Assembly (NCBI GenBank): GCA_028690155.1
Contig: JAQVBU010000006.1
Coordinates: forward strand, 60,593-124,592
Length of the DNA: 64,000 bases
Direction of reading: 5' to 3'
DNA from: Alphaproteobacteria bacterium
GTDB taxonomy: Bacteria > Pseudomonadota > Alphaproteobacteria > UBA9219
The notes below the pieces were generated by a model. It did not search any database. It had not been told where the DNA came from and was given only the letters and a program-made list of their open reading frames with translations. The position numbers and the translations under genes are program-made. Shown in pieces: positions 37,188 to 52,427 of the stretch. The stretch's first letter is position 1. Each line of letters starts with the position of its first letter.

Positions 37188-37937
37188 CTATCGCGCCGCG
37201 AGCGCCGCGATAAGCGTCCGGACGTCTTTGGGCTCGATGGTCGTTTGCTTATCCCCGGCCGCATCGGGACGGCGCACGGAGACCAACGTTCCGCCCAGAT
37301 CGGTCACAATGGCCAAGCTTGCGTCCGTTGTCGCGTCGTCGCCTATATACACCGGCGTCTTGCCCTTGAATTCAGACCGCCGCATCAGATATCGGATGCC
37401 TGTTCCTTTACTGATACCCTTTTTCATAAGTTCGTAGGTGCGACCGATCTTACGAACAAGGTAGTTTTCCTTCTTCTCGCCTAAGGCGTTTTGTATCTCG
37501 GTCTTGATGTTCTCTTCGGCCCGCACAGGCGGAAGATGAAGGGATGCGCCGTAGATTTTATCCTCGCACAACGCATCGTGCCGGTCGCCGACCTCATGAA
37601 CGGCTTCAACAACAGCTTTAGGCAGAGGGGCTGTTAGAGATTCAATGGCCTCGTCTTTCCCCAAACGGCATTCGGCGCCATGACAGCCGACGGCTGTCGT
37701 CTTTACCCCCTCCAAAAACTTATCGAGAAGGTCTATTTCGCGTCCCGTAACGATCGCAAAAGAACAATCATCCCTTGCTTCCAATGTTTTCAGATTTCTT
37801 ATCAACGCGTCGGGTACGTCCACGGCTTTCGGATCCACGGTCAGATCCACCATTGTCCCATCAAAATCTATAAAATACGCTTTGTCACAACTGTCTTGGA
37901 CGATGTCGTCCATCCCTTCACGGTTCGACACAACCAT
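37188..37937 (-). CDS. otsB: Trehalose-6-phosphate phosphatase
   Basis: OtsB dephosphorylates trehalose-6-phosphate. The 249 residues contain HAD motif I YFIDFDGTMVDL near residue 23, the TGREIDLLDKFL segment, GCHGAE and VYIGDDATTDASL (motif IV) near 200. The ATG at 37937 is preceded by GAGGAGGAAGA at ideal spacing; a longer start lies inside otsA. It follows otsA, making the standard otsAB pair. Confidence 0.92.
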   Translation of the reverse strand: MVVSNREGMDDIVQDSCDKAYFIDFDGTMVDLTVDPKAVDVPDALIRNLKTLEARDDCSFAIVTGREIDLLDKFLEGVKTTAVGCHGAECRLGKDEAIESLTAPLPKAVVEAVHEVGDRHDALCEDKIYGASLHLPPVRAEENIKTEIQNALGEKKENYLVRKIGRTYELMKKGISKGTGIRYLMRRSEFKGKTPVYIGDDATTDASLAIVTDLGGTLVSVRRPDAAGDKQTTIEPKDVRTLIAALAAR

Positions 37938-37965
37938 GGGTCTTTCTTCCTCCTCAAAAAAAACG

Positions 37966-40218
37966 CTAAGAGGCTTCGCCCTCTTCCTCACTCACGTTAA
38001 AATTCTTTTCCTTTTTCAAAAGCTCGTTCAACCGCCGACGCTGGTGCAGACGGCCTGCGTCGTCCAAGATCTGGGCCGCCCACGCAAACACGTTATGCGC
38101 TTTTGTATGTTCGCGCATGCTCTTCATCCGCGCTTCCTGCTCTTCGGGCCCCATCGTGAGCGCTCGTTCGATGCTTCGCGTCAAGCCGATCTCATCATAG
38201 GGATTCACAATCACCGCATCCACAAGCTCGCGCGAGGAGCCGGAAAACTGACTTAAAATCAACACACCTCGGTTGTCGTCCCGCCCTGCCACAAACTCCT
38301 TTGCCACAAGATTCATGCCGTCATGCAACGACGACACGATACAGACGTCCGCCGCCCGATAGAACCGGTACACGTCGGCTTGCGTAAATGTCTTCTTCAA
38401 AAGGCAAACCGGCGTCCACCCTTCTCTTCCGTATTTGGCGTTCACGGCCGCCGCTATTCCCTCGACCTCGCGATCAACATCCGCATACGCCCTGATGGCC
38501 GAGCGCGAAGGCGAGGCTATTTGCACAAACGAGACCTTTCCCTTCCATTCAGAATGTTGCTCTAAAAACGCGTCAAAAGCTCGAAGCCTTTCCGGTATCC
38601 CTTTGATGTAATCCATACGTTCGACCCCTAAGACGATCTTGTTCTTCGGATCGAGATTCAGCATCGACACGATTTCATCGCGGCACGCCGATAAGCTCGG
38701 GACGCCCAGCGCTTGGAAGTCCGGCCAGGCGATCGATATCGGGTACGGCCGGATCATGCAAAAATCGTCCCCATGCCGCACCGTATCATGCTCGCGGTCG
38801 ACCAAGGCTTCGATATGCGCATCCACGCAATCAAGGAAGTTGTTACAAAGCTGCTGTGTGTGAAAACCAACGATGTCCGCCGCCAGCAAGCTTTCCAAGA
38901 ATTCCTCCCGCCACGGCAGAATGCTCAACGTTTCGCTGTTTGGCCATGTAATGTGCCAAAAAATCACGATCACCGCATCAGGGAACCGTTCCCGCACCAT
39001 GCGCGGCAGTAGACCAAAATGATAGTCCTGAATGAAGACGATCGGCGACGACGTTTTCGCCTCGGCCACGATCGCGTCCAAAAACATCCGGTTCACGTCC
39101 CGGTAAGTTTCCCAATCCGACGCCCGAAACCGGGGTTTCACAAATACAAGGCTGCACAAGGGCCACAGGCCCTCGTTCGCAAACCCCTCGTAAAAACCGG
39201 TTTCTTGCTCCTTCGTCAACCACAGCCTCTTCAATCGGTAACAAGGCGCGTTGGGCGGCACCATCAATATCCCCTTTTCGTCCGCGGCGTCCCGGTCCGC
39301 ATCCCCTGAAGACACCGCAACCCATGTACCCCGGCAGGCCTTCATGATCGGTTCGAGCGCCGACACAAGGCCGCTTACTGGCGTCGTCCATGACAACCCC
39401 TTGCTCGTTTTGCCGTGAACGTACGGTTCACGGTACGACACCGCGATAATCTGCTCGGACGGCAAATTGTTGCTGATGAAATCGTAAAGCGACTCCGCCG
39501 ACCATTGCGCGCACCACAATTGAAGCCTTTGCTGTTCGCGTTCCAGCTTGCGAATGCGCTGCTGAATCTCCCGCGTGATGCTAATGGTTTCCCGCGGGAG
39601 GCCCTTCGTTCTTTGGCCCGTCCGCACAAAATCCCGTACCGTCAGAATCCATCGCCGTAAGGCAAGCCTCGACGCGATCACGATAACCGTCGCCGCAATA
39701 AGGCTGACACCCAAGACAAACCATAACAGATACCGTTGCGTGTTCGTGCTTCGCTTCTCGGCGTAAGCCATATCATGCACGACCAACAACATGTTCGACG
39801 CGCTCGATACTTTCCCTGTTTGAAGATCCTTTATTGGAAACGTCGCAATCAAAACCCGGCCGTTCTTGCTTTTTTGCTTCTTGAAAACAGGTTTCAACGG
39901 CGCCGTTGACGGACACCGGATATCCGAGGGGAAATCGCTGTTCCGATATTTGGGGCGGCCGCCGCCCGCACAATAGCCGATCCCCACAATGCCGCCTTCT
40001 TGCGCAAATTGCGTCAAGCGATGCGTCAATCGGCGTTCATCTTGCGGCGTGAATACTTCGGGCAAACTTTCTTCGACCGACGAAAAGACAAGGCGCGACC
40101 GTAACTGTAAATCCGACTCCGACCAACTGAGAAAAAGCCGGTCCGTTTGCGGCAAGAGAAAATACGCCAGAAGGCTTAAAACGAACGCCAACGGCACAAG
40201 AAACCGAAACAAAATCAT
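37966..40218 (-). CDS. otsA: Membrane-anchored sensor fused to trehalose-6-phosphate synthase
   Basis: This protein joins UDP- or ADP-glucose and glucose-6-phosphate to trehalose-6-phosphate. It has 750 residues, against about 470 for E. coli OtsA. Residues 5-25 form a membrane helix, about 26-160 look like a periplasmic CACHE-type domain with one Cys pair (YCAGGGRPKY and IRCPS), and about 163-190 form a second helix followed by a HAMP-like linker and coiled coil. The GT20 domain (about 245-730) keeps the ERMDYIKGI and SLHDGMNLVAKEF blocks. The layout suggests synthesis is controlled by an extracytoplasmic signal. It precedes otsB. Confidence 0.88.
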   Translation of the reverse strand: MILFRFLVPLAFVLSLLAYFLLPQTDRLFLSWSESDLQLRSRLVFSSVEESLPEVFTPQDERRLTHRLTQFAQEGGIVGIGYCAGGGRPKYRNSDFPSDIRCPSTAPLKPVFKKQKSKNGRVLIATFPIKDLQTGKVSSASNMLLVVHDMAYAEKRSTNTQRYLLWFVLGVSLIAATVIVIASRLALRRWILTVRDFVRTGQRTKGLPRETISITREIQQRIRKLEREQQRLQLWCAQWSAESLYDFISNNLPSEQIIAVSYREPYVHGKTSKGLSWTTPVSGLVSALEPIMKACRGTWVAVSSGDADRDAADEKGILMVPPNAPCYRLKRLWLTKEQETGFYEGFANEGLWPLCSLVFVKPRFRASDWETYRDVNRMFLDAIVAEAKTSSPIVFIQDYHFGLLPRMVRERFPDAVIVIFWHITWPNSETLSILPWREEFLESLLAADIVGFHTQQLCNNFLDCVDAHIEALVDREHDTVRHGDDFCMIRPYPISIAWPDFQALGVPSLSACRDEIVSMLNLDPKNKIVLGVERMDYIKGIPERLRAFDAFLEQHSEWKGKVSFVQIASPSRSAIRAYADVDREVEGIAAAVNAKYGREGWTPVCLLKKTFTQADVYRFYRAADVCIVSSLHDGMNLVAKEFVAGRDDNRGVLILSQFSGSSRELVDAVIVNPYDEIGLTRSIERALTMGPEEQEARMKSMREHTKAHNVFAWAAQILDDAGRLHQRRRLNELLKKEKNFNVSEEEGEAS

Positions 40219-40469: not shown

Positions 40470-41420
40470 TTAGACACTTGTTTTCCAAACATTATCCTGC
40501 TGAAAAAAGCCCACCGTCCTTTTCAGCCCTTCCTCAAGAGATGTTTTCGGTGTCCAACCGAGGTTTCCCGTCGCTTTTCTTATGTCCGGCTTTCTTTGAT
40601 GGGGATCGTCCTGTGGAAGGGGATTGTACGTAGGTTCTGTCGCACTCCCTGTAAGATGCATAATTTTACGCGCCAGATCATTCATCGAACATTCTTCGGG
40701 CGTCCCTAAATTTAAAGGCCCCGTCATGTCGTCCGGACTTTCCATAAAAGCGATCAACCCTTCGATCAGATCATCAACATAGCAAAAACTTCGCGTCTGT
40801 TTCCCGTCCCCGTAGAGCGTCATCGGTTTGCCCCTTAGTCCCTGGACGATAAAATTACTGATCACCCGTCCATCGTCCGGACGCATCCGCGGACCATAGG
40901 TGTTGAAAATCCTCGCCACCTTGATCGGCATTCCATGTTGCCGCCGATAGTCGAAAAACAACGTCTCGGCGCATCGTTTTCCTTCATCGTAGCAGCTTCG
41001 GCTTCCAATCGGGTTCACGTTGCCCCAGTAGCTTTCCTCTTGCGGATGGCAGGTCGGGTCGCCGTAAATTTCGCTCGTCGAGGCTTGCAGAATCTTCGAC
41101 TTCGTTCTTTTGGCTAGGCCCAGCATGTTGATCGCGCCCATGACGCTGGTCTTCGTCGTTTGAACCGGATCTTTTTGATAGTAAATTGGGCTGGCCGGAC
41201 AGGCCAAATTGTAAATTTCGTCAACCTCGACATAGAGCGGAAACGTTACGTCGTGGCGCATAAACTCAAAATGCGGGTTTTCCAAAAGGTGCACGATATT
41301 TTCGCGCCGCCCTGAAAAGAAATTATCCACACAGAGAACGTCGCAGCCTCGCGCAAGAAGCGCGGCGCAAAGATGCGATCCCAAAAAACCGGCCCCGCCC
41401 GTTACAAGAACGCGTTTCAT
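40470..41420 (-). CDS. UDP-glucuronate decarboxylase (UDP-xylose synthase)
   Basis: This is an extended SDR enzyme that converts UDP-glucuronate to UDP-xylose. The 316 residues contain [12 protein letters not shown] at residues 5-16, the UXS-type STSEIYGDP and the full catalytic CYDEGKR (Tyr-x-x-x-Lys), plus [14 protein letters not shown] and the C-terminal [12 protein letters not shown]. The ATG at 41420 overlaps the upstream glycosyltransferase stop by 4 bases, which shows translational coupling. UDP-xylose could serve the adjacent glycosyltransferase; this is inferred from position. Confidence 0.9.
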
Positions 41421-43456
41421 GCCTTTTTCCTCCGAACGCCGCAAACCTCTGACGCCCACAGCCGCGCATCGGGATAAATCGGCCTGAGCGCGTGTCTTTT
41501 CTTGAGAAGACGCCCCCACCACATTCGGTAGGATTCGTCGTCCATGTGTTTAAGCCTGTCATAGTCCTGCTTGCTGGCAAGCGTCCCATACACATCCATG
41601 TTGCGCAAGTCCGGCGTCGGCAATTTTCCGCCCTCGCAAGCCTTCCACATCGTTTCGTAAAGCCCCTCCAGTTTGTTAACAAGGCGCGGCGTATCGAAAA
41701 GAAGGCAGGTGTCCCGCGTCGTCACAAGCTTTTCCTTATACCGCCCCAACGCCTTCTTGTCGTTACCCAAGGCGATAGCCCGGCCGACATACTCTTCCGG
41801 CGTCGAGCAAACCAAATCCGGAAAACCCGCCGCGCGCACAAGGCTTCCGCACACACGCGAAGCAAACGATTTGCCGCTTAACGTCAACACCGGAACGCCC
41901 ATCCACAAGGCATCCGACGCCGTCGTGTGCGCACCGTAAGGAAACGTATCCAAGAACAAGTCCGCCAAAGGATAACGCGCAAGGTGCTCGGCATTTGGCT
42001 TGCGCGCCGCAAAGACGATCCGCCCCGCCTCGACCCCGTGCTGCCCAGCATAGGTCCGCAGACGGTCTTGGGTGTCCTCGTTGCCTCCTAAAAGCCACAG
42101 CACGCTTTGCGGCACGCGCATCAATACCGTCAGCCACAAGTCAAACATCGGCTTTGTAAGTTTTTGCGTTCCATTAAAGCAGCAAAAAACCGTCGCTTCT
42201 GGGGGAAGGCCTGCATCGGCACGGGTCGGCTTTTTATCCGACAAGACCCTTTTTCTATCGTTCGGTTGATAACAAGGGAGACGGAGAATTTTCTCGGAAA
42301 AATAAATTTCGTTTTTCTTCGGAATAATCCAATCGTCCGCGATAAGATAGTGATGGTAGGCGCTTCCTGCGCTGCCCGGAAACCCAAGCCAGTTCACAAT
42401 CACCGGCGCCGGCCTTCGGGCGATGACTTTGGCCCGCGCGTCACGCGTGTAGCCGTTCAGATCCACCAGAATCTGAATCCCGTCGTCCTCGATCCGCCGC
42501 GCGGCCTCCTCGTCGCTCATCGCGTTGATCGGGGTCCAGTGGTCCACCGTCGCCTTGATCCGCCGCATGGTCGCGTCCTCGGCGTCAATCCCGCAGTAGT
42601 AAACATAAACCTCGACTTTTTCTCTGTTGTGAAGGCCAAAGACTTCGGACATTAAAAAGCCGACAGCGTGTTCACGCAAATCCGACGACACATACCCTAT
42701 TTTAAGCGCACCGTCCTTTTTACCGTTCTCGTACGCGGCCCTACAAGGGTGGATCGCGTCATCCGGATCGCCGATATCCTTTGCGTTGTAACAGGCGTTA
42801 CAGGACAGCTGGAACATAGGATCGTCCGTATGAATGGCCGCCGAAAGCGGCGACATTCCCTTCATCAAAACTTCCGCATCCGCACGATCGACCGGTTTGA
42901 CGACCGGCCAATCGCACAGCCGTTGTCTTGTAGCCAGATAGTGTTGAATCACATCGCGCTGGTCCGGGTCTAACTCGAGGCTTTGACGAAGCATCGCCTC
43001 GGCCTCCGTATCCCGACCGGCCGCTTCCAAAACCCGCGCCATTTGATTCAACAGGGTCGTTTTGTGGGACAAGCTCATCCCCGTCACGGGAGCAAGAACG
43101 TTCAGCGCCTTGTTCCAGTTTATCAACGCCTCGTTCATACGCCCGGCCCGTTCCCACAGGCGTCCAAGATTAATGTACGATGGCGCAAAAGCTGGGTTAA
43201 GTTCTATTGCTTTTTCAAAGGCCTGGCGAGCATCCTCCAACCGGCCTTCCTGCGTCAGCGCCGCCCCATAGTTAAAGAAAACCACATAGAGCATTGGGTG
43301 CCCGGGATGCCCGTTCGTCCACGCCCGGTAGAGAGCCAGCATGGCCTCACGGCGGCCTTCGCGCCTGAGCGTTTCCGCCTGACCGACGAGCTCGGTAACG
43401 CTCATGTCTGGCGGCTTGGCTCCTTCTTGCTCTTCCGGATACGCATCATGCAACAT
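41417..43456 (-). CDS. TPR-containing O-GlcNAc-transferase/SPINDLY-family glycosyltransferase
   Basis: This is a 679-residue GT41-family protein. TPR motifs occupy about residues 57-170, followed by CDWP near 181, the catalytic-domain start [15 protein letters not shown] (residues 252-266, with the conserved His), [10 protein letters not shown] at 355, and the nucleotide-sugar motif [21 protein letters not shown] at 502-522 (given in two parts). GT41 enzymes transfer GlcNAc (OGT) or fucose (SPY) to Ser/Thr of cytosolic or nuclear proteins; bacterial members modify flagellin-like or autotransporter proteins in a few known cases. It begins 21 bases after the giant repeat gene, so that protein is a natural candidate substrate. 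Confidence 0.9.
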
Positions 43457-43477: not shown

Positions 43478-46400
43478 CTAACCTAACGCAGCGTCGAGCG
43501 CGGCAAGCTGTTCCGTCGTCAAGCCCGACATTTGCCCTTCCGACAGCGTCGCGATCTGTGAGGCCGTCAGCGATTCAAGTTGATCAAGCGTTAGGCCCGC
43601 CAACATCGTGCTGCTAAGGCCCGAAACTTGCGTCGTCGTCATCCCGCCTAACTGCACCGCCGTCAACATATTGAGCGTTGTCGTCGTTAGCGCATTCAAC
43701 TGCGAGGCTGTCATCGCAGAAATCTGCTTCGATGTCATCGCATCAAGTTGATCCTGCGTCAAAGCGTTCAGCATCGAAACCGTAAGGTTTGGAATTTGCG
43801 TCGTCGTCAAGGCGGCGATTTGATCATCCGATAAAGCGCCGACTTGCGTCGTCGTCAATTCGCGCAACTGCATGCGTTCCAAAGCTTGGATCTGCGTCGC
43901 GCTGAGGTCGTCGATTTGCGTCGTGGTCAAACCATCGATCCCTTCAAGCGACAAAGCGCCGATCTGCGTCGCAACAAGCGCCGCAAGCTGCGTTTCCGTC
44001 AACGCCGATACCTGGCTCGCGGTCAAGCCGCTGATGCCGTCTGTCGACAAAGCCACCACTTGCGCCGCCGTCAAAACCCCGAGCTGGGTTTCCGTCAAGC
44101 CCGCAACTTGTTCGGCCGTCAAGCCGCCGAGCCCTTCGGACGACAAAGCTTGGATCTGTGTTGTCGTCAGAGCCGCAATCTGCGTCGCCGAAAAGGCCTC
44201 CATGGCCGTAGCGGACAATCCAGACAGCTGGCTCGTCGTCATCGCCGCGAGACGATCAACATCCAAACCTTCGATCGCCGTTGATGTCAGCGCACCCATT
44301 TGCGTTTCCGTCAACGCCGCAAATTGCCGCGTCGTCAAGGCGGCCATATCCTCGGCCGTCAAACCGGCAATCCCCTTTGTCGACAGGGAGGAAATTTGCG
44401 AGGTCAGGAGCATCGTCACCTGCTCACTCGTCAACACGCCAACCTGCGTTGAGGTCAAGCCCGCGATTTGCGTCGTGGTCAGATCATGGAGTTGCTCTTC
44501 GGTCAAACTGCCAATCAAAGTCGTCGTCAAGGCGCCGATTTGGTCTTCTGTCAAGGCGCCGATCTGCGTCGACGTCAGTTTTGCATATTCGGCGGCACTC
44601 AAGCCGTTAACCGCCGCCTCCGTCAAGGCCGCCATCTGTGTCGCGCTGAGCGCCGCAAGCTGCTTGTCCGACAGAATCCCCACATCCGTCGCGCTGAGGC
44701 CTGTTATGGCTTGGGCCGACAAGGCCGCAACCTGCTTGGATGTCAGGCCCGCAATCTGCTCTGTCGTCATCGCGGAAATCTGCTCCGCCGTCAGGCCCTC
44801 AACCTGCGTTGTGGACAGCTCGGCCAGATCCGTAGGGGTCAAAAGCGCAATCTGTTCTGTCGTCAACGCGCCAATCTGCGTCGACGTAAACGCGTCCAAA
44901 TCCGTCTGCGTCATCGACGAAAGAAGCGTCCCTGAAATATAGCCGATCGCCTCTTCGGAAATCGCCGCAATCTGTGTGTCGCTGAAGACGTCCAAAATCA
45001 TCGACGACAGCGCTTCAAGCTGCGCTTCCGTCAAGCCTGCGATCTGGGTCGTCGTCATCGATTCCCATTCACGCGTTGTCAACGCTTCCATCTGTGTTAC
45101 GCTAAGCGCCGCAATTTGCTCGTCCGTCAATGCCGTAAATTGCGTTGTGGACAACTCAGCCATTTGCGTCGTTGTCATGCCTTGCAAACCAGTCGTCGAA
45201 AGAGCGGCCACTTGCTCGGCGCTGAGCCCCTTGATCTGTTTGGCCGTCAAGATGTCGACTTGCTCGGACGTCAGCCCCCCCAAAGCCGTCGAGGTCAAGG
45301 CTCCGAGCTGGGTCGAGGTCATCGCCGCCACCTGCGCGGTCGTCAACGCGGCGACTTGGCGATCCGTTAGCCCCTCTAAAGCCGTCGTCGTCAGCGCTTC
45401 AAGCTGCGTTTCCGTTAAAGCCGCCAGTTGGGTCGCTTCTAACGAGCCGAGTGCTGTCGACGTCAATTCTTGAATCTGGTCCTCGGTTAGCGCCGCCATC
45501 TGCGTCGTCGTCAAACCGTCGAAACCATCGATCGAGATGGCGCCGACCTGCTGTGTTGTCAAGGCTTCGATCTGTTCGAGGCTAAGCGATTCCGTCTGGG
45601 TTTCCGTCAGCCCCGCCACCGCCGTCGCTGTCAACGACGCAATTTGTTGCGTGCTGAACGAATCAAGTTGAGTTGTGGTAAGACTTCCAACTTGATCCGC
45701 CGACAATCCGTTGATTTGCGTCGTCGTTAACGAAGCAATCTGCGTTGCCGTGAGGCCGTCAAGCCCCGTCGTGGAAAGCGCCGCGATCTGTTCGGATGCC
45801 AACGCGGCCAACTGTTTCGTGGACAGCGCGGCAACCTGCGTCTCATCAAGGCTCCCTATCCCCGTCATCGACAGCGCATCCACCTGCCGTGTCGTCAACG
45901 TCTGAAGCTGGGAAACCGATAGAGACTGAACCACCGATTCCGTCAGGCCCCCAATTTGGTCCGACGTTAGAACGCCGATTTGCGTTTCCGTTAAAGCTTG
46001 GATCTGCGTTTCGTCCATCGCGTTCAACTGCGTCGTCGTCAAGGACCGGACTTGGGACGTCGAGAGCGCCTGAATCTGCGTCTCGCTTAGGCCGTCAATG
46101 CCTCCCTCGGACAGAGCGTTGATCTGCGTCGTCGCAAAGTATGCCAATTGGGCAACCGTCAGACTTTCGACTTGATCGGCGGTGAGGCCCCCCATGGCTG
46201 TCGCGCTGAGGCCTTTAATTTGCGTTTCCGTCAGAACCGCTATCTGCTCGGACGTCAGGCCTGCCATGGCCGTCGACGACAGCCCTTTAATTTGCGTCGT
46301 CGTTAACGAAGCGATTTGCGTCGTCGTCAGGCTTTCAATCAGATCTTCGCTAAATCCCGCAAGCTGGGTTGCCGTCAAGGCACTGAGCTGCGTTTTTGTC

Positions 46401-49400
46401 AGACTTTGAACCTGCGTTTCGTCGAGCCCGCCCAACGCGGTGGTGGTCAACGCACCGATCTGCGCGGCGCTGAGAACGGCGAATTGCTCGGTCGTCAGGG
46501 AGCCGATCTGCGTTTCGTTGAGACCCTTCATTTGCGTCGTGGTCAAAAGCGCGAGCTGATCCAGTGTCAAGCCTTCGATCTGCTCATTCGTCAAGGCGCC
46601 TATTTCCGTTGAGGTCAGCGCTTTCAGCTGCGTCGCCGACAAAAGATCAAGATCAAGCGAATCCACGCTGTCTGTCGAAATTGCGCCGACTTGACGCGTT
46701 GTCAAAAGAGCCACCTGTTCGCTGGTCAGCGACGCAATCTGCTCGTCCGTCAGGCTGCCCACTTGCGTCTCTGTCAGCGCTTTCAGCTGCGTCGCCGGGA
46801 AAGCACCAAGCTGCTCGGCGCTGAGTTCCTCGACCTGATCCGGCGTCAACGCGTTCAGCTGCGTCGTCGTCAGGGCCGTAATCTGGTCGTCCGTTAGGGA
46901 CCCTATGAAACCAACGTCAAGCGCTGCGATCTGTGTGCTGGTCAACGAAGCCAACTGTGTCGCCGTCAACTCTGTAAACTGGCTTTCCGACAAGCCATTC
47001 AACGCTGTCGTCGTCAACGCCTGTATTTGCCGCCTCGTCAACGCATTAAGCTGCGTCGAGGTCATCGCCTTAACACTGTTTTCGGTCAACCCCGCAACCT
47101 GCGTCGAGGTCATCACCGCCAACTGCTCCGTGCTTAGGCTTTGGATCTGATCGTCCGTCAACGCCCCGATCTCACTCGATGTCAGCCCTTTGACCTGTGT
47201 CGTCGTCAGCAACGACAGGTCAAGCGAATCCACGCTTTCTGTCGAAATCGCCGCAATCTGCCGCCGCGACAACACAGCGAGCTGGTCCGCCGAAAAATCA
47301 AGCAGTTGCTCGTCCGTCAATCCGCTCATTTGCGTCGTCGTTAACGCCGACAGCTGGTCTTCTGAGAAAGCATCGAATTGTCCGTTGCCGAGCAACGAAA
47401 TTTGCGTCGCCGTCAAGGCGGCAATCTGGCGCGTCGTAAGCCAGGAAATTTGTTCGTCGTTAAGATTCTCGATATACGCCTCGTCAAGCGCCGCAATCTG
47501 GCGCGTCGTCAACGCCGATAGTTGCGTTTCAGTCAGGCTGTCAAACTGCTCCTCTGTCAGCCCGTTCAACGCCGGGGTCAAAAAAGCCGAGAGCTGTTTC
47601 GCGCTCAACGCCGCGACGTGCTCGTCCGTCAACGCTGAAACCTGCGTCGCCGTCAGTCCCTTGATTTGCGTCGAGCTTAATGCGCTGACCTGCTCCGTCG
47701 TTAACCCGGAAATCTGCTCTTCCGACAAGGCCCCTATTTCCGTCGAGGTCAACCCCTTCATCTGGGTCAACGTCAACCCGGACAAATCCAACGAATCGAC
47801 CGATTCTTGCGAAATCGCCCCAATCTGCTTGGCCGAAAGCACCGCCAGCTGAACCACCTCCAGCGCCGCGACCTGTTCATCGGTCAAACCCGATATTGCC
47901 GTCGTTGTCAATCCGCCCAACTGCGTCGTCGTCAACGCCCGGATCTGCTCTTCCGACAAGACTCCTATCTCCGTCGAGGTCAGCCCTTTTACCTGCGTCA
48001 ACGTCAACGCCGCAAGAACGGTTTCCGGCAGATCTTCGATCGCCGTCTCCGACAAAGCCGCTATTTGCGTCGAGGTTAAGACAGCCCGTTGCTCGTCCGA
48101 CAAAGCCGCAATTTGGTCCCCGGACAGGGTCCCCATGACGGTCGTCGCCAACGCCGCAACCTGCCGCGTCGTTAACGCGCCGAGTTGGAAATCCGTTAGA
48201 AATTCGGCTTGCGTCGACGTCAGCCCACGAACCCCATTGATCGAGAGCGCCTGAAGTTGCGCCTCGCTCATGGCGCCAAGTTGGTCTTCGTCAAGGGCAC
48301 CGACCTGATAGCCCGTCAACGCGCCGATCTGTTCGGTCGACAGCGCCTCGATTTGCGTTTCTTCCAACGCCGAAAGGGCCGTCGTCATCAACGCGGCCAT
48401 CTGCGCCGTCGTCAGCGCGCCGAGCTGACCGGCCGTCAGAACGCCGATCTGGTCCTCCTGAAACCCACGAACGGCGCTCGTTGTCAAGGCCGCAATCTGG
48501 GTTTCGCTCAACGCGCCGATCTGCTCCGCATCGAGCGCGCTCACGACCGTCGAAGTCAACGCCCCCATCTGCGTCGCGGAAAGCGCGGCGATCTGTTCCA
48601 TCGAATAATACGCCACCTCTTCGGTGGACAGACGCGCCAATTGCGACGAGGTTAGATAGGTCATCTGATCAAGCGTCAAGGCGCTGACCTGTTCCTCTTC
48701 CAAATTGTTCATCTGTGTCGTCCGCAGCGCCGCCACCTGCGTTTGCGTCAGAGAGGCAACCTGCTCAACCGTCAGATACGTTATACTAACCGTCGTCAGG
48801 CCCGCCATCGCCGAAATCGTCAGGCTCTGAAGCTGCGTTGTCGATAGCGCTTTGATTTGTTCCTCATCCAAAGCGTACACTTGCGTGCTGGTCAGGGCCC
48901 CAATCTGCGCCGTTGAAAGAAGCGCGACCTGATCCAGATCAAAAGAGGCTATCGCCTTTGTCGTCAGATGATTGATCTGCGTTGCGCTGATGGCTTGAAT
49001 TTGTTCGTCCGACAGATCATCAATCTCGGTTTCGGTCAAGCCTTCCATCTGCTTGGCTGTCAACCCGCTGATTTGGGATGTCGTCAGGGCTTCAATCTGG
49101 CTCGCCGAAAAATTCGAAATCTGCGTCGTCGTCAAACCGCGCAGTTGCGTTTCGGTCAAACTCTCGAACTGCTCGGCCGTCAACGCGCCAATCGCTGTCG
49201 TCGTTAACGCGCCAATCTGGCGTGACGTCAGCGCTCTGAACTGCAAGGGGTCAAGCGAAGCCGCCTGCTCGGCTGTCAACGCCTCGATCTGAGCCACCGT
49301 CAGGGCCCCTATCTGGGTCGTGGCCAAAGCTCCCAATTGCGCGGTCGTCAGCGCCGCACAACAAGCGGTCGTTAGGCCGCGAAGCTGTTCCGTCGTCAGG

Positions 49401-50857
49401 CATGCGATCTGAACCGTCGAAAGTTCGGCAATCTGCGTTGTCGTCAACCACCCCATTTGTGTCGAGGTCAGTCCCGATACCTGCTCCTCCGTCAATGACG
49501 ACAACGTCGTCGCGTCCAGCCCGCCAATCTGCCGCAACGTCAGAGCGGCCATCTGCGTCGACGATAAAGCCGCCCGTTGATCCGCGCTAAGCGCGTTGAT
49601 CCTATCGGCCGACAACCCGTATAGTTGCGTGTCCGTAAACGCCGCAATTTGCTCTTCCGAAAAAGCCGAAATTTGCGTGACGGTCATCGAGGCAATCCCC
49701 GACGACGTCAGACCGCGAATTTGCGCGGTCGTCAGCGCCGAAATCATCTCGGTCGTCAATCCGTCAATACCCGACGTCGTCAGCGCACTAAGCTGCGTCA
49801 CAGTCAACAACGACAACTGGTCTTCCGTCAAAGCGCCCACCTGCTCGCAGGTCAAGCCCTTGATCCCCGTCGTCGTCAAGGCGCTGAGCTGCGTCGCCGA
49901 AAAAGCCTTGATCTGCGTGGTTGTCAGCGCGGCAATTTCGGTCGACGTTAAAAACGACATCTGCGTCGTCGCCAGCCCCGCCAGCTGCACAGTTGACAGA
50001 ACCCCCAATTGCTCCGTCGTCAGCGCCGCCACTTCCGCTGACGTCATCGCCGCAAACTGCTCGTCCGTGAGCGACGCCACCACGCCGGTCGTCAACGCGC
50101 GGACCTGTGCCGAGGTTAGGCTCGCCACCTGCGTGGTCGAAAAAGACGCCACCTGCTCGGCCGACAGCCTTCCGATTGAGGACGTCGTCAACGCCTTGAT
50201 CCCCGTTTCGTTTAAAGCGGCAATCTGCGTCGCCGTGAAAACAGCGACAGCGTCTTCACTAAGCGCGTAAATCTGGGACGCCGCCAAAGACGCCACCTGC
50301 GCGCCCGTCAACCCCGCTGCGCCCGTCGCCTGGATCGCCGAGACCTGCGTCCGCGCGAACACATCCAATTGCGCCGTCGTCAGAGCCCCGATCTGCTCGG
50401 ACGACATCGCACCGATCGCCGTCATCGATAGATATTTAACCTGCTTTTCAGTCAAAGACGCGACCTGATCCGCCGACAGGGCCGCCACTTCCGTCTCGCT
50501 GAGCGCCGCCACCGCGGTCGTCGTCAGCGCCGCCACCTGCGTGGTCGTCATCTCGCCAAGAACCGCCGCCCCGAGGAGGTCTTCCTGCGCTTCCAGCAAG
50601 ACCGAAAGCTGGCTGCTGGTAAACGCCGCCTCGCCCGACGTCAGCGCCACCGCCTGCTCTTCGGACATGTCCTCGATTTGATCGTCCGTCAGGGCATCAA
50701 TCTGATTTTGCGAAAAGTCTTCAAGTTGCTCGACCGAAAAGGCGTCAATTTGTTCGTCCGTCAGCGACGCAATGTCCGTCTCGGACAAAGACGCAATATC
50801 CGCCGACGTCAGGGTCGTTATCTGTGTGGCGGTCAGTGTTGCGACGGACAAGCTCAT
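43478..50857 (-). CDS. Giant octad-repeat protein (2459 residues)
   Basis: A single uninterrupted frame of 2459 codons that I do not recognise as a named family. It consists of about 300 tandem octads of the form T-x-x-Q-[IV]-x-x-L, for example VAALTTTA, VAALSETE, VAALSADQ. Positions 1, 4 and 5 of the octad are nearly fixed, the others vary. Residues 75-105 interrupt the pattern. There is no signal peptide, membrane segment, or Pro-rich linker, and only four cysteines. It begins MSLSVATLTATQ and ends LAALDAALG. Thr and Ser make up an estimated quarter to a third. The start follows GAGGG. It lies downstream of flgE on the same strand with its own sigma-54-like site, and leads an operon with a glycosyltransferase and UDP-xylose synthase. 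Location unknown; a secreted or surface role is inferred. Confidence 0.85.
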   Translation of the reverse strand: MSLSVATLTATQITTLTSADIASLSETDIASLTDEQIDAFSVEQLEDFSQNQIDALTDDQIEDMSEEQAVALTSGEAAFTSSQLSVLLEAQEDLLGAAVLGEMTTTQVAALTTTAVAALSETEVAALSADQVASLTEKQVKYLSMTAIGAMSSEQIGALTTAQLDVFARTQVSAIQATGAAGLTGAQVASLAASQIYALSEDAVAVFTATQIAALNETGIKALTTSSIGRLSAEQVASFSTTQVASLTSAQVRALTTGVVASLTDEQFAAMTSAEVAALTTEQLGVLSTVQLAGLATTQMSFLTSTEIAALTTTQIKAFSATQLSALTTTGIKGLTCEQVGALTEDQLSLLTVTQLSALTTSGIDGLTTEMISALTTAQIRGLTSSGIASMTVTQISAFSEEQIAAFTDTQLYGLSADRINALSADQRAALSSTQMAALTLRQIGGLDATTLSSLTEEQVSGLTSTQMGWLTTTQIAELSTVQIACLTTEQLRGLTTACCAALTTAQLGALATTQIGALTVAQIEALTAEQAASLDPLQFRALTSRQIGALTTTAIGALTAEQFESLTETQLRGLTTTQISNFSASQIEALTTSQISGLTAKQMEGLTETEIDDLSDEQIQAISATQINHLTTKAIASFDLDQVALLSTAQIGALTSTQVYALDEEQIKALSTTQLQSLTISAMAGLTTVSITYLTVEQVASLTQTQVAALRTTQMNNLEEEQVSALTLDQMTYLTSSQLARLSTEEVAYYSMEQIAALSATQMGALTSTVVSALDAEQIGALSETQIAALTTSAVRGFQEDQIGVLTAGQLGALTTAQMAALMTTALSALEETQIEALSTEQIGALTGYQVGALDEDQLGAMSEAQLQALSINGVRGLTSTQAEFLTDFQLGALTTRQVAALATTVMGTLSGDQIAALSDEQRAVLTSTQIAALSETAIEDLPETVLAALTLTQVKGLTSTEIGVLSEEQIRALTTTQLGGLTTTAISGLTDEQVAALEVVQLAVLSAKQIGAISQESVDSLDLSGLTLTQMKGLTSTEIGALSEEQISGLTTEQVSALSSTQIKGLTATQVSALTDEHVAALSAKQLSAFLTPALNGLTEEQFDSLTETQLSALTTRQIAALDEAYIENLNDEQISWLTTRQIAALTATQISLLGNGQFDAFSEDQLSALTTTQMSGLTDEQLLDFSADQLAVLSRRQIAAISTESVDSLDLSLLTTTQVKGLTSSEIGALTDDQIQSLSTEQLAVMTSTQVAGLTENSVKAMTSTQLNALTRRQIQALTTTALNGLSESQFTELTATQLASLTSTQIAALDVGFIGSLTDDQITALTTTQLNALTPDQVEELSAEQLGAFPATQLKALTETQVGSLTDEQIASLTSEQVALLTTRQVGAISTDSVDSLDLDLLSATQLKALTSTEIGALTNEQIEGLTLDQLALLTTTQMKGLNETQIGSLTTEQFAVLSAAQIGALTTTALGGLDETQVQSLTKTQLSALTATQLAGFSEDLIESLTTTQIASLTTTQIKGLSSTAMAGLTSEQIAVLTETQIKGLSATAMGGLTADQVESLTVAQLAYFATTQINALSEGGIDGLSETQIQALSTSQVRSLTTTQLNAMDETQIQALTETQIGVLTSDQIGGLTESVVQSLSVSQLQTLTTRQVDALSMTGIGSLDETQVAALSTKQLAALASEQIAALSTTGLDGLTATQIASLTTTQINGLSADQVGSLTTTQLDSFSTQQIASLTATAVAGLTETQTESLSLEQIEALTTQQVGAISIDGFDGLTTTQMAALTEDQIQELTSTALGSLEATQLAALTETQLEALTTTALEGLTDRQVAALTTAQVAAMTSTQLGALTSTALGGLTSEQVDILTAKQIKGLSAEQVAALSTTGLQGMTTTQMAELSTTQFTALTDEQIAALSVTQMEALTTREWESMTTTQIAGLTEAQLEALSSMILDVFSDTQIAAISEEAIGYISGTLLSSMTQTDLDAFTSTQIGALTTEQIALLTPTDLAELSTTQVEGLTAEQISAMTTEQIAGLTSKQVAALSAQAITGLSATDVGILSDKQLAALSATQMAALTEAAVNGLSAAEYAKLTSTQIGALTEDQIGALTTTLIGSLTEEQLHDLTTTQIAGLTSTQVGVLTSEQVTMLLTSQISSLSTKGIAGLTAEDMAALTTRQFAALTETQMGALTSTAIEGLDVDRLAAMTTSQLSGLSATAMEAFSATQIAALTTTQIQALSSEGLGGLTAEQVAGLTETQLGVLTAAQVVALSTDGISGLTASQVSALTETQLAALVATQIGALSLEGIDGLTTTQIDDLSATQIQALERMQLRELTTTQVGALSDDQIAALTTTQIPNLTVSMLNALTQDQLDAMTSKQISAMTASQLNALTTTTLNMLTAVQLGGMTTTQVSGLSSTMLAGLTLDQLESLTASQIATLSEGQMSGLTTEQLAALDAALG
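46092..47792 (-). repeat. Three 189-residue super-repeats inside the giant gene
   Basis: A 13-residue phase-breaking segment (SVDSLDLS type) occurs at plus-strand anchors 47792, 47225 and 46658, exactly 567 bases apart. Between anchors the octads align in order, including LNGL-x-E-x-QF and the IAALD-x-x-[FY]I block. A shorter copy of the TQ-x-K-GLTSTEIG block lies 231 bases further 5' in the gene. The last unit is less complete. The pattern shows block duplication in steps of 22 octads plus 13 residues. Confidence 0.85.
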
Positions 50858-51170
50858 GACGCGCCCTCTGCTTTGGCGGTGTCTTTTTGTCCCTTTTCTG
50901 CCCGGACCTCGATCATATCCCTGCCTTCATTCCTAGGACGCACGGTGGAGCGCAGCCCTGCTCAAATTTCTTTATTCCGTGCAAGAATGAGGCCAAAAAG
51001 AAGGCCCCGTTTCACCTTGATTCCAAAGGAATTTTCGCCACCATTTCGGCAGAGGGGGGGAACACGGTCTTCCGTTTTCGATCCTGCCGGGACATTTCTT
51101 CCCCCAGACCGCCGGAGCCGTTCTTATAGCTGATCTTTCCCTTAAAAATAACCCCCTAACCGCTTTATTC
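50858..51170. other. Spacer between flgE and the giant gene
   Basis: These 313 bases hold the sigma-54-like site for the giant gene (50980-50996) and otherwise no ORF of coding character. There are short GGCC pairs around 50990-51006. I see no clear terminator for flgE, so read-through into the giant gene is possible. Confidence 0.5.
50980..50996 (-). promoter_or_regulatory. Sigma-54-like -24/-12 element for the giant gene
   Basis: The minus strand reads TTGGCC-T-CATTC-TTGCA, matching the consensus TGGCAC-N5-TTGC with the exact 5-base spacing (TGGC then TTGC). The -12 box lies about 125 bases before the ATG at 50857, giving a predicted leader near 113 bases. Confidence 0.55.
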
Positions 51171-52427
51171 TTATTGCAGATCGATCAGGACCTTCATCAT
51201 CTCGCTTACCGCCGAGACTACCTTGGCGTTTGCCGAATACACCTGCTGAACCGACACTAAATCCGTAAACTCCGATGCAAGATCCACGTTCGACCCTTCG
51301 AGCGTGCTGCTTGCAATAGATCCCGCGCCGTCCGTTCCGGCTGCGCTGTACGTCGCCGTCCCGGACGACGTCGTCTCGCGGTAGGCGTTCCCGGTCAAGT
51401 TTTGCAGCGCATCGTCCGCCATAAACGTCGCAATCGGAATTTGGTAAAAAACCTCGGACTGCCCGTTCGTATAAATGATGTTCACGTTCCCACTGCTATC
51501 GATTTCGGCGCTTTTGTAAGACCCTGTCGTCACGCCGTCCGCCGTAAAGGCCGATACATTGATCGCCGAGCCCGCGTATTGAGTCACACTGGATAGATCA
51601 CACGAAATCGTCTGCGCCGCCGCGCCTTCGTATTGCAGATCAAATGATATTGTCGTGCCAGAAACGCTGTAATAATCGCCATAATCGACTGTCTCAAGCG
51701 CGCCATAACCATCGAATGACACCTCAACCGATGCCGAATAGTCGCTATACGTTCCCGATCCGGCATCGTAACTTCCGTCCGCCGCCCCAATCGTCAACGT
51801 CCACGTGTTCGTACTGGCATCCGTTAAGGCCCACGAATACGTCACATCATGCGCCACGCCCAACGAATCGTAAATCGACGCCGTCGCCGTCCCCGTGACG
51901 TCCTCCCCGGCCGGAAGGTTCGCATCGTAGTTAATCGTCGCCGTCGCAACCGCTTCGTTAAGCTCGTTCGACGACACCTGAATCGGCACACGCGGCTCTA
52001 TCTGGGGCTCGCCCGTCGCCGTGTCCACGGCCCACCCCATCAGATAGTACCCTTCGCTGTTGACCAAATAGCCGTTGCTGTCCTCGGAAAAATCGCCGCA
52101 CCGGGTATAATATTCCTCGGCGCTGAACGTCAGCGTGCCGTCCGCCGCGCGCGTCGCCGTCTTCACGACGAAATAGCCGCTTCCGTCGATCGCCAAATCC
52201 GTTTCCGTACTCGTTGAGGTCAGATCCCCTTGCACATCGTTGTCATAATCCGCAGTCGCCGTCACTCCGCCTGCGGATGACCCCGAAACAAGATCGGAAA
52301 AGTCCGTATCCGTCCCTTTGTACGCCGTCGTCGACGAATTTGCCAAGTTGTTGGAAATATTGGATATCGCCGACGCCTGTGCCGACAATCCGGTCGTCGA
52401 TGTCGTCAATGCTGCGTTCAATGTCAC
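51171..52427 (-). CDS. flgE: Flagellar hook protein FlgE
   Basis: This is the structural subunit of the flagellar hook, 418 residues. The N-terminus has SAISNISNNLANSSTTAYK, the flagellar rod/hook signature near residues 20-40, and the C-terminus ends LVSVQQVYSANAKVVSAVSEMMKVLIDLQ (shown in part), the paired helical segment. The middle is Ser/Thr/Asp/Gly/Tyr-rich, as in other alphaproteobacterial hooks. The GTG start follows AGGAGGG. A sigma-54-like promoter lies about 70 bases upstream, as for class III flagellar genes of Caulobacter. Confidence 0.93.
   Translation of the reverse strand: MTLNAALTTSTTGLSAQASAISNISNNLANSSTTAYKGTDTDFSDLVSGSSAGGVTATADYDNDVQGDLTSTSTETDLAIDGSGYFVVKTATRAADGTLTFSAEEYYTRCGDFSEDSNGYLVNSEGYYLMGWAVDTATGEPQIEPRVPIQVSSNELNEAVATATINYDANLPAGEDVTGTATASIYDSLGVAHDVTYSWALTDASTNTWTLTIGAADGSYDAGSGTYSDYSASVEVSFDGYGALETVDYGDYYSVSGTTISFDLQYEGAAAQTISCDLSSVTQYAGSAINVSAFTADGVTTGSYKSAEIDSSGNVNIIYTNGQSEVFYQIPIATFMADDALQNLTGNAYRETTSSGTATYSAAGTDGAGSIASSTLEGSNVDLASEFTDLVSVQQVYSANAKVVSAVSEMMKVLIDLQ

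Follow-up and report, generated by a model that had tools for sequence, protein, structure and literature searches.

Results

A giant gene of the ALTTAQ family

The window (the 64,000-nucleotide stretch of alphaproteobacterial DNA analyzed here) encodes a giant acidic protein that is built almost wholly of ALTTAQ octads, shows a further periodicity of ~3.4 octads, and is paired with a GT41 glycosyltransferase gene. We read the product, with a probability of roughly 60%, as a solenoid rod that receives O-linked sugars from the adjacent GT41 enzyme while still in the cytoplasm and is then exported to the cell surface. The features that matter for this reading lie on one strand.

51171..52427, minus strand: second flagellar hook protein FlgE gene, upstream neighbor of the repeat gene
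50858..51170, minus strand: intergenic leader of 313 bases between flgE and the repeat gene
43478..50857, minus strand: ALTTAQ octad-repeat protein gene, ATG start, open reading frame of 2459 aa, no other domain
41417..43456, minus strand: TPR and GT41 (OGT-type) glycosyltransferase gene, 679 aa, separated from the repeat gene by 21 bases
40470..41522, minus strand: UDP-glucuronate decarboxylase (UDP-xylose synthase, UXS) gene, likely sugar donor enzyme

The initial annotation had described one giant gene, open for 2459 codons, in which an octad is preserved in the protein across variable codons, and both statements held up: the frame is ATG-started, and a tiling script placed 303 octads on the protein, 299 of them distinct. 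Only 35 residues fall outside the tiled octads (7 N-terminal, 6 C-terminal, one 7-residue break, and three 5-residue breaks), and the last three breaks are spaced by exactly 189 residues. Leu holds its position in 254 of the 303 octads, position 2 is Thr or Ser in 264, and the residue directly after the Gln position is Ile, Leu, Val, or Met in 282. Gln itself, which had been called fixed, is frequent (220 of 303, 73%). The protein has a mass of 254 kDa and a pI of 4.05, and contains 411 Thr, 238 Ser, 7 Pro, and 4 Cys; judged by eye, its N-terminus has no signal-peptide-like start. One copy of the gene was found in the host genome (2.1 Mb, 43 contigs, 99.4% complete).

The same initial annotation recognized no named family, which a profile search corrected: the protein is a member of Pfam PF20080 (ALTTAQ_rpt), with 998.8 bits against a cut-off of 26.4 in 51 stretches, and the same octad runs over the whole protein. 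NCBIfam gave no match. Pfam matches to CAAP1, sigma-70, and LRR_EndoS were also returned within the repeat; no stretch passes alone, and these are likely chance likenesses of repeats. An established family with this octad and a known function had been named as evidence against the initial annotation. The Pfam name exists, but its name and description line say nothing on function, fold, or partners, and within the searches made we found no study of the ALTTAQ repeat, PF20080, or the octad motif. Nor did these searches return anything on giant octapeptide-repeat proteins with type I secretion systems (T1SS), on T1SS together with an O-GlcNAc transferase and a tandem-repeat adhesin, or anything relevant on the flagellar hook with GT41. 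Apparently, the repeat is already catalogued yet without a dedicated study.

In the phylum sample, 25 of 299 genomes have an ALTTAQ match (22 above the cut-off), and 16 of the 25 belong to one family of two genera (f38). Among the control genomes the count is 1 of 14 (Caulobacter vibrioides), and in the order sample it is 5 of 34, all from the genus of the window, in which 5 of 11 members have the repeat. A scan of genome contigs with the whole repeat protein gave two loci and therefore says little about range. Public records label ALTTAQ proteins as hypothetical, "heme utilization," or "ICE nucleation" proteins; the present analysis produced no evidence for the latter two names. The f38 genomes (L071–L076) have several ALTTAQ genes each, with open frames up to 6436 aa and a strong two-octad period. 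Proteins of 3500–4000 aa from another family, f10 (L077, L078, L079), have a short octad part (~260 aligned residues) and are otherwise different.

Age of the array

Where two octads 1–30 apart share a residue at the same position, the rate of identical codons always lies within 2.5 standard deviations of that for permuted order (0.428 ± 0.016), which rules out a recent tandem expansion of the repeat DNA. The claim that no recent expansion had occurred at the DNA level is thereby confirmed; the longest blastn self-match within the gene is a 159-base alignment at 75%. Tandem arrays found by TRF inside the gene are short, with 2–3 units only. There is an older three-fold block of 189 aa at approximately residues 940–1400, where lag-189 identity is 0.37–0.68 in 60-residue windows starting at 940–1340.

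It is highly improbable that the gene is a selfish, low-constraint repeat expansion whose product has no function. A frame open over its full length, octads that are nearly all distinct and preserved despite varied codons, a second period common to relatives, and partner genes that recur all argue against it, even though ALTTAQ genes vary widely in length, the repeat is absent from 6 of the 11 genomes of the genus, and the gene is broken into several open reading frames in Pseudoroseomonas (L098) and Pseudomonas asturiensis (L123). The initial annotation had counted frameshifts in relatives against itself; these two split genes may be such cases, but assembly error in repeats is possible. Overall, its picture of a giant gene with an old array and an octad kept under varied codons stands, while its missing family name and its fixed Gln do not. 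It did not include the strand, the second period, the mini-helix fold, or the glycosyltransferase and UXS neighbors, which are treated below.

Predicted fold and second period

An AlphaFold model of residues 1678–1917 (240 residues; alignment of 49 rows, 48 of them other slices from the window protein and related proteins) reached a pLDDT of 97.5 and a pTM of 0.88, with 30 mini-helices of 4–6 residues in 30 octads. A different slice modeled without an alignment scored lower (pLDDT 77.1, pTM 0.54) and showed mostly the same pattern, with some helices fused into longer ones. One mini-helix per octad is predicted with high confidence. Each octad, L-T-x-x-Q-[IV]-x-x, would form a single mini-helix of 4–6 residues, with Thr/Ser and Gln probably serving as its N-terminal cap. 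Leucine-rich-repeat chains matched the profile by sequence, and that fold was rejected because the model shows mini-helices and no strands. Among the Foldseek matches listed, mesothelin and ARM-type superhelices were the best, yet weak. A viral fold search returned uncultured phage proteins (E 5e-7, TM at most 0.31).

By sequence, the octad is matched by HeliScrew4 (PDB 9zem; 6.7e-28 with the profile and 3.9e-17 with the protein), which is a designed protein judging from its name. It shares the octad register of the repeat protein over 103 aligned residues, but it has 120 residues and the octads shown mostly have Pro at position 3. HeliScrew4 was not among the Foldseek matches listed for the model, and nothing on HeliScrew was found in the literature searches made.

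Above the octad lies a second period, which we followed with three features: replacement of Gln, acidic residues at positions 3–4, and Gly at positions 7–8. Combined, they peak in the window protein at 3.378 octads, with a score of 36.9 against a shuffled maximum of 22.0 (0 of 5000 shuffles). Residues 79–1019 alone give 3.396 octads and residues 1406–2453 alone give 3.460 octads (0 of 1000 shuffles in each case). The three features were picked from six inspected on the window and four in the next test. Bulky residues, the fourth feature, gave no signal above shuffles in the window protein, and when breaks between octads are ignored the acid feature of this protein peaks at 2.144. Since a first inspection of the window guided the choice of features, the relatives provide the fairer test.

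In a first set of 21 proteins (those passing an octad-density filter, the window protein included), 18 peak at 3.35–3.52 octads, 17 of these with p<0.01; the three exceptions peak at 4.81, 2.83, and 2.73. L098, L101, L104, L105, L122, and L123 fell outside this set, either because another overlapping frame was picked or because the gene is split. Of a further 11 proteins (five pieces of L098, L101, L105, and L123 and six f38 giants, with L104 and L122 left out), nine peak in the same range and seven have less than 1% of shuffles reaching the peak; the failures are L123c, L098, L075 (6/300), and L076. The giant f38 proteins have a stronger period at 2.0 octads, perhaps from octad-pair duplication. 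Altogether, the period of ~3.4 octads is supported in 24 of 32 proteins, which are partly dependent (they include two L125 genes, two L123 pieces, and two alike Rhizobium proteins, L099 and L120).

The simplest reading of this periodicity is a solenoid that would present a face every 3.4 octads, much as residues recur every 3.6 along an alpha-helix. Between proteins, the features differ in their relative phase, and the solenoid faces would therefore differ as well. Together, one mini-helix per octad and the ~3.4-octad period suggest a rod in which the mini-helices wind as a regular solenoid through about 89 turns. If ~1 nm per turn is assumed, the 303 octads would make a rod of ~80–90 nm.

The adjacent glycosyltransferase and the probable sugar donor

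The gene directly downstream of the repeat belongs to GT41 (Glyco_transf_41, 272.9 bits against a cut-off of 25), and several TPR models also score above their cut-offs. Its top solved relatives are OGT and then XcOGT, with 332 bits to OGT versus 23.5 to an HMW1C-like chain. GT41 enzymes have a catalytic His and Lys; in the part of the alignment examined, two histidines after the SSD motif align with OGT. The next gene encodes a UXS, with 393–397 bits to UXS1 structures versus 149 for the next family, and it shares 69% identity with the UXS encoded at a Pseudoroseomonas locus that also has GT41, T1SS, and ALTTAQ genes. The listed start of the UXS frame overlaps the end of the GT41 frame, and the true start may lie further downstream. 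Downstream of UXS, positions 37188–40218 on the minus strand hold genes for a trehalose-phosphatase and for a GT20 protein that resembles trehalose-phosphate synthase and is longer by ~250 residues at its N-terminus.

The pairing of ALTTAQ and GT41 genes recurs. The same order with a gap of ~30 bases is found in genome G318 (GT41 identity 59%) and in Acidisphaera (L21, 54%), genome G313 has a GT41 gene (58%) on a 3.7-kb contig that also contains an ALTTAQ match, and the pair is present in genome G514 and on plasmids. At the G514 locus (L125:1429-20000), one GT41 gene lies between a pair of ALTTAQ genes, one of 2856 aa and the other of 2587 aa or more. Across 385 genomes of the class, four have a GT41 match at E<=1e-120, a limit set after the order-sample results for GT41 were seen, and all four have it within ~6 kb of ALTTAQ (for one of them, G488, the proximity is taken from its plasmid record).

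Among 72,556 plasmid records, ALTTAQ occurs in 58 and GT41 relatives in 101. The two lie within ~9 kb of each other in 26 of the 58, of which 11 are from Cereibacter and the others from Rhizobium, Pseudorhizobium, Shinella, Pseudoroseomonas, Rhodovastum, Niveispirillum, and Pseudomonas. In one record they are far apart, and in 31 none of the best 60 of the 101 GT41 matches occurs. Distances are between best places, except in Rhizobium lusitanum, where another place is adjacent. The best plasmid GT41 matches (43–51% identity) are all among the 26, with 12 of 12 within ~9 kb of ALTTAQ. More distant GT41 relatives (E 1e-80 to 1e-103) occur in 15 order-sample genomes without an ALTTAQ match, and 36 Azospirillum plasmid records have a GT41 relative and none has ALTTAQ; consequently, the link with ALTTAQ is limited to the closest GT41s.

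Given this linkage, we propose that the neighboring TPR-GT41 enzyme would add O-linked sugars to the Thr/Ser-rich chain in the cytoplasm, before export, and that its TPR part may recognize the repeat chain. The adjacent UXS would make UDP-xylose, the probable donor by gene linkage. UXS also stands beside GT41 in Pseudoroseomonas, Niveispirillum, and genome G578. Elsewhere the neighbors are different: Glf (UDP-galactopyranose mutase) is nearby in four rhizobial loci (L100, L106, L122, and L124) and Gmd in one Pseudomonas (L101), while no UXS, Glf, or Gmd was seen in the examined stretches of G318, Acidisphaera, and G514. From these neighbors, the sugar donor would seem to change with lineage.

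Export and the flagellar neighbors

Among the ALTTAQ loci compared, which are not a random sample, T1SS genes lie near nine relatives' loci, identified by Pfam in L081 (itself a weak ALTTAQ match, E 7e-4), L083, and L085, by annotation in L098, L101, L105, and L123, and by BLAST in L121 and L126. No T1SS adaptor or exporter was found among the window genes tested. In the host genome, no T1SS adaptor was found (the best HlyD match has 27 bits against a cut-off of 208.65) and no C39 domain was found. An adaptor match in G318 scored 192 bits, short of the cut-off, and lies truncated at the edge of a contig. We suggest that export would place the product on the cell surface as a rod that serves in adhesion or forms a sheath or matrix; the linked genes point to type I secretion in many relatives, whereas in this genome the rod would perhaps leave by a different route.

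The host's lack of a detected T1SS adaptor and the absence, judged by eye, of a signal-peptide-like N-terminus would also suit a rod exported by the flagellar type III system. Such a rod might decorate or sheathe the filament or hook and might have the second FlgE for a partner. The repeat gene lies 313 bases from the second flgE and shares its strand with upstream surA-like, fliM, and fliL genes. In G318, an flgE (L069:6535-7818) 57–60% identical to that of the window is ~4 kb from the repeat gene on the same contig, next to a gene whose FlgD_ig match falls below threshold; another flgE lies elsewhere in that genome. Pseudorhizobium flavum has flagellins and FlgE beside ALTTAQ and GT41, Rhodovastum has a flagellar cluster, and Shinella PSBB067 has flagellin and FlgE homologues. 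None of these five loci with flagellar genes nearby, the window included, showed T1SS genes in the stretch examined. Still, we regard flagellar export as rather unlikely: many ALTTAQ loci are without flagellar neighbors, and the flagellar genes are not the same across the five. We know of no example of so long a chain leaving through the flagellar export channel. The repeat protein has no flagellar domain (Pfam gave PF20080 and the three spurious-looking matches, NCBIfam none). GT41 could also act on flagellin instead, because cytoplasmic TPR-glycosyltransferases that do so, such as FlmG, are known.

The FlgE gene at 51171–52427 is a tentative member of the module. Another flgE of the host, on contig 40, matches it at 40–48%. 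Within the leader at 50858–51170, no sigma-70-like match was found. A 20-codon frame at 50854–50916 on the minus strand (ATGATCGAG...) has a TGA that overlaps the ATG of the repeat gene (ATGA); it is perhaps a coupled leader peptide.

A scaffold or storage rod that never leaves the cytoplasm is a distinctly improbable alternative. In animals, OGT acts on nuclear and cytoplasmic proteins, and GT41 would in the same way act inside the cell. The same N-terminus and missing adaptor would suit such a rod, as would the 12 of 38 loci compared that have an ALTTAQ frame and no partner genes in the stretch examined, but the T1SS genes near nine relatives' loci speak against it.

Discussion

The preferred reading, an O-glycosylated solenoid rod on the cell surface, draws on several features that are new here, namely the second period of ~3.4 octads, the adjoining GT41 and then UXS genes, the closest GT41s lying near ALTTAQ, and the relatives linked to T1SS. 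If true, it would give structure, partners, and a testable chemistry to a catalogued repeat family on which our literature searches returned nothing. As a unit of a helical solenoid the octad would be very short, with a turn that the sequence alone predicts. Many such rods would be accompanied by an OGT-like enzyme of their own and a gene for the sugar donor, providing a clean system in which to study substrate choice by a bacterial OGT homologue and a naturally occurring counterpart of HeliScrew4, a protein that, by its name, is screw-like and designed.

A bolder version may be imagined, though it is improbable. It would be a widespread surface-rod system of mini-helix solenoids with ~3.4 octads per turn and up to several thousand residues. 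Each rod would undergo heavy cytoplasmic O-glycosylation by its own dedicated OGT-like enzyme, and the sugar would depend on the lineage: xylose, galactofuranose, or a GDP-sugar. Export would be type I in some hosts and flagellar in others, including this one.

Dedicated glycosyltransferases are found in other systems. HMW1–HMW1C consists of an adhesin and its dedicated cytoplasmic glycosyltransferase. In Caulobacter, FlmG is a TPR-glycosyltransferase that acts on flagellin (PMC7591256). Both systems resemble the proposed one in combining a large secreted substrate with a dedicated cytoplasmic glycosyltransferase, and FlmG also joins TPR and glycosyltransferase parts as the TPR-GT41 protein of the window does. 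They differ in that the substrate here would be an octad rod and the GT41 enzyme is OGT-like, and in that ALTTAQ loci have UXS, Glf, or Gmd neighbors and, in relatives, type I export genes.
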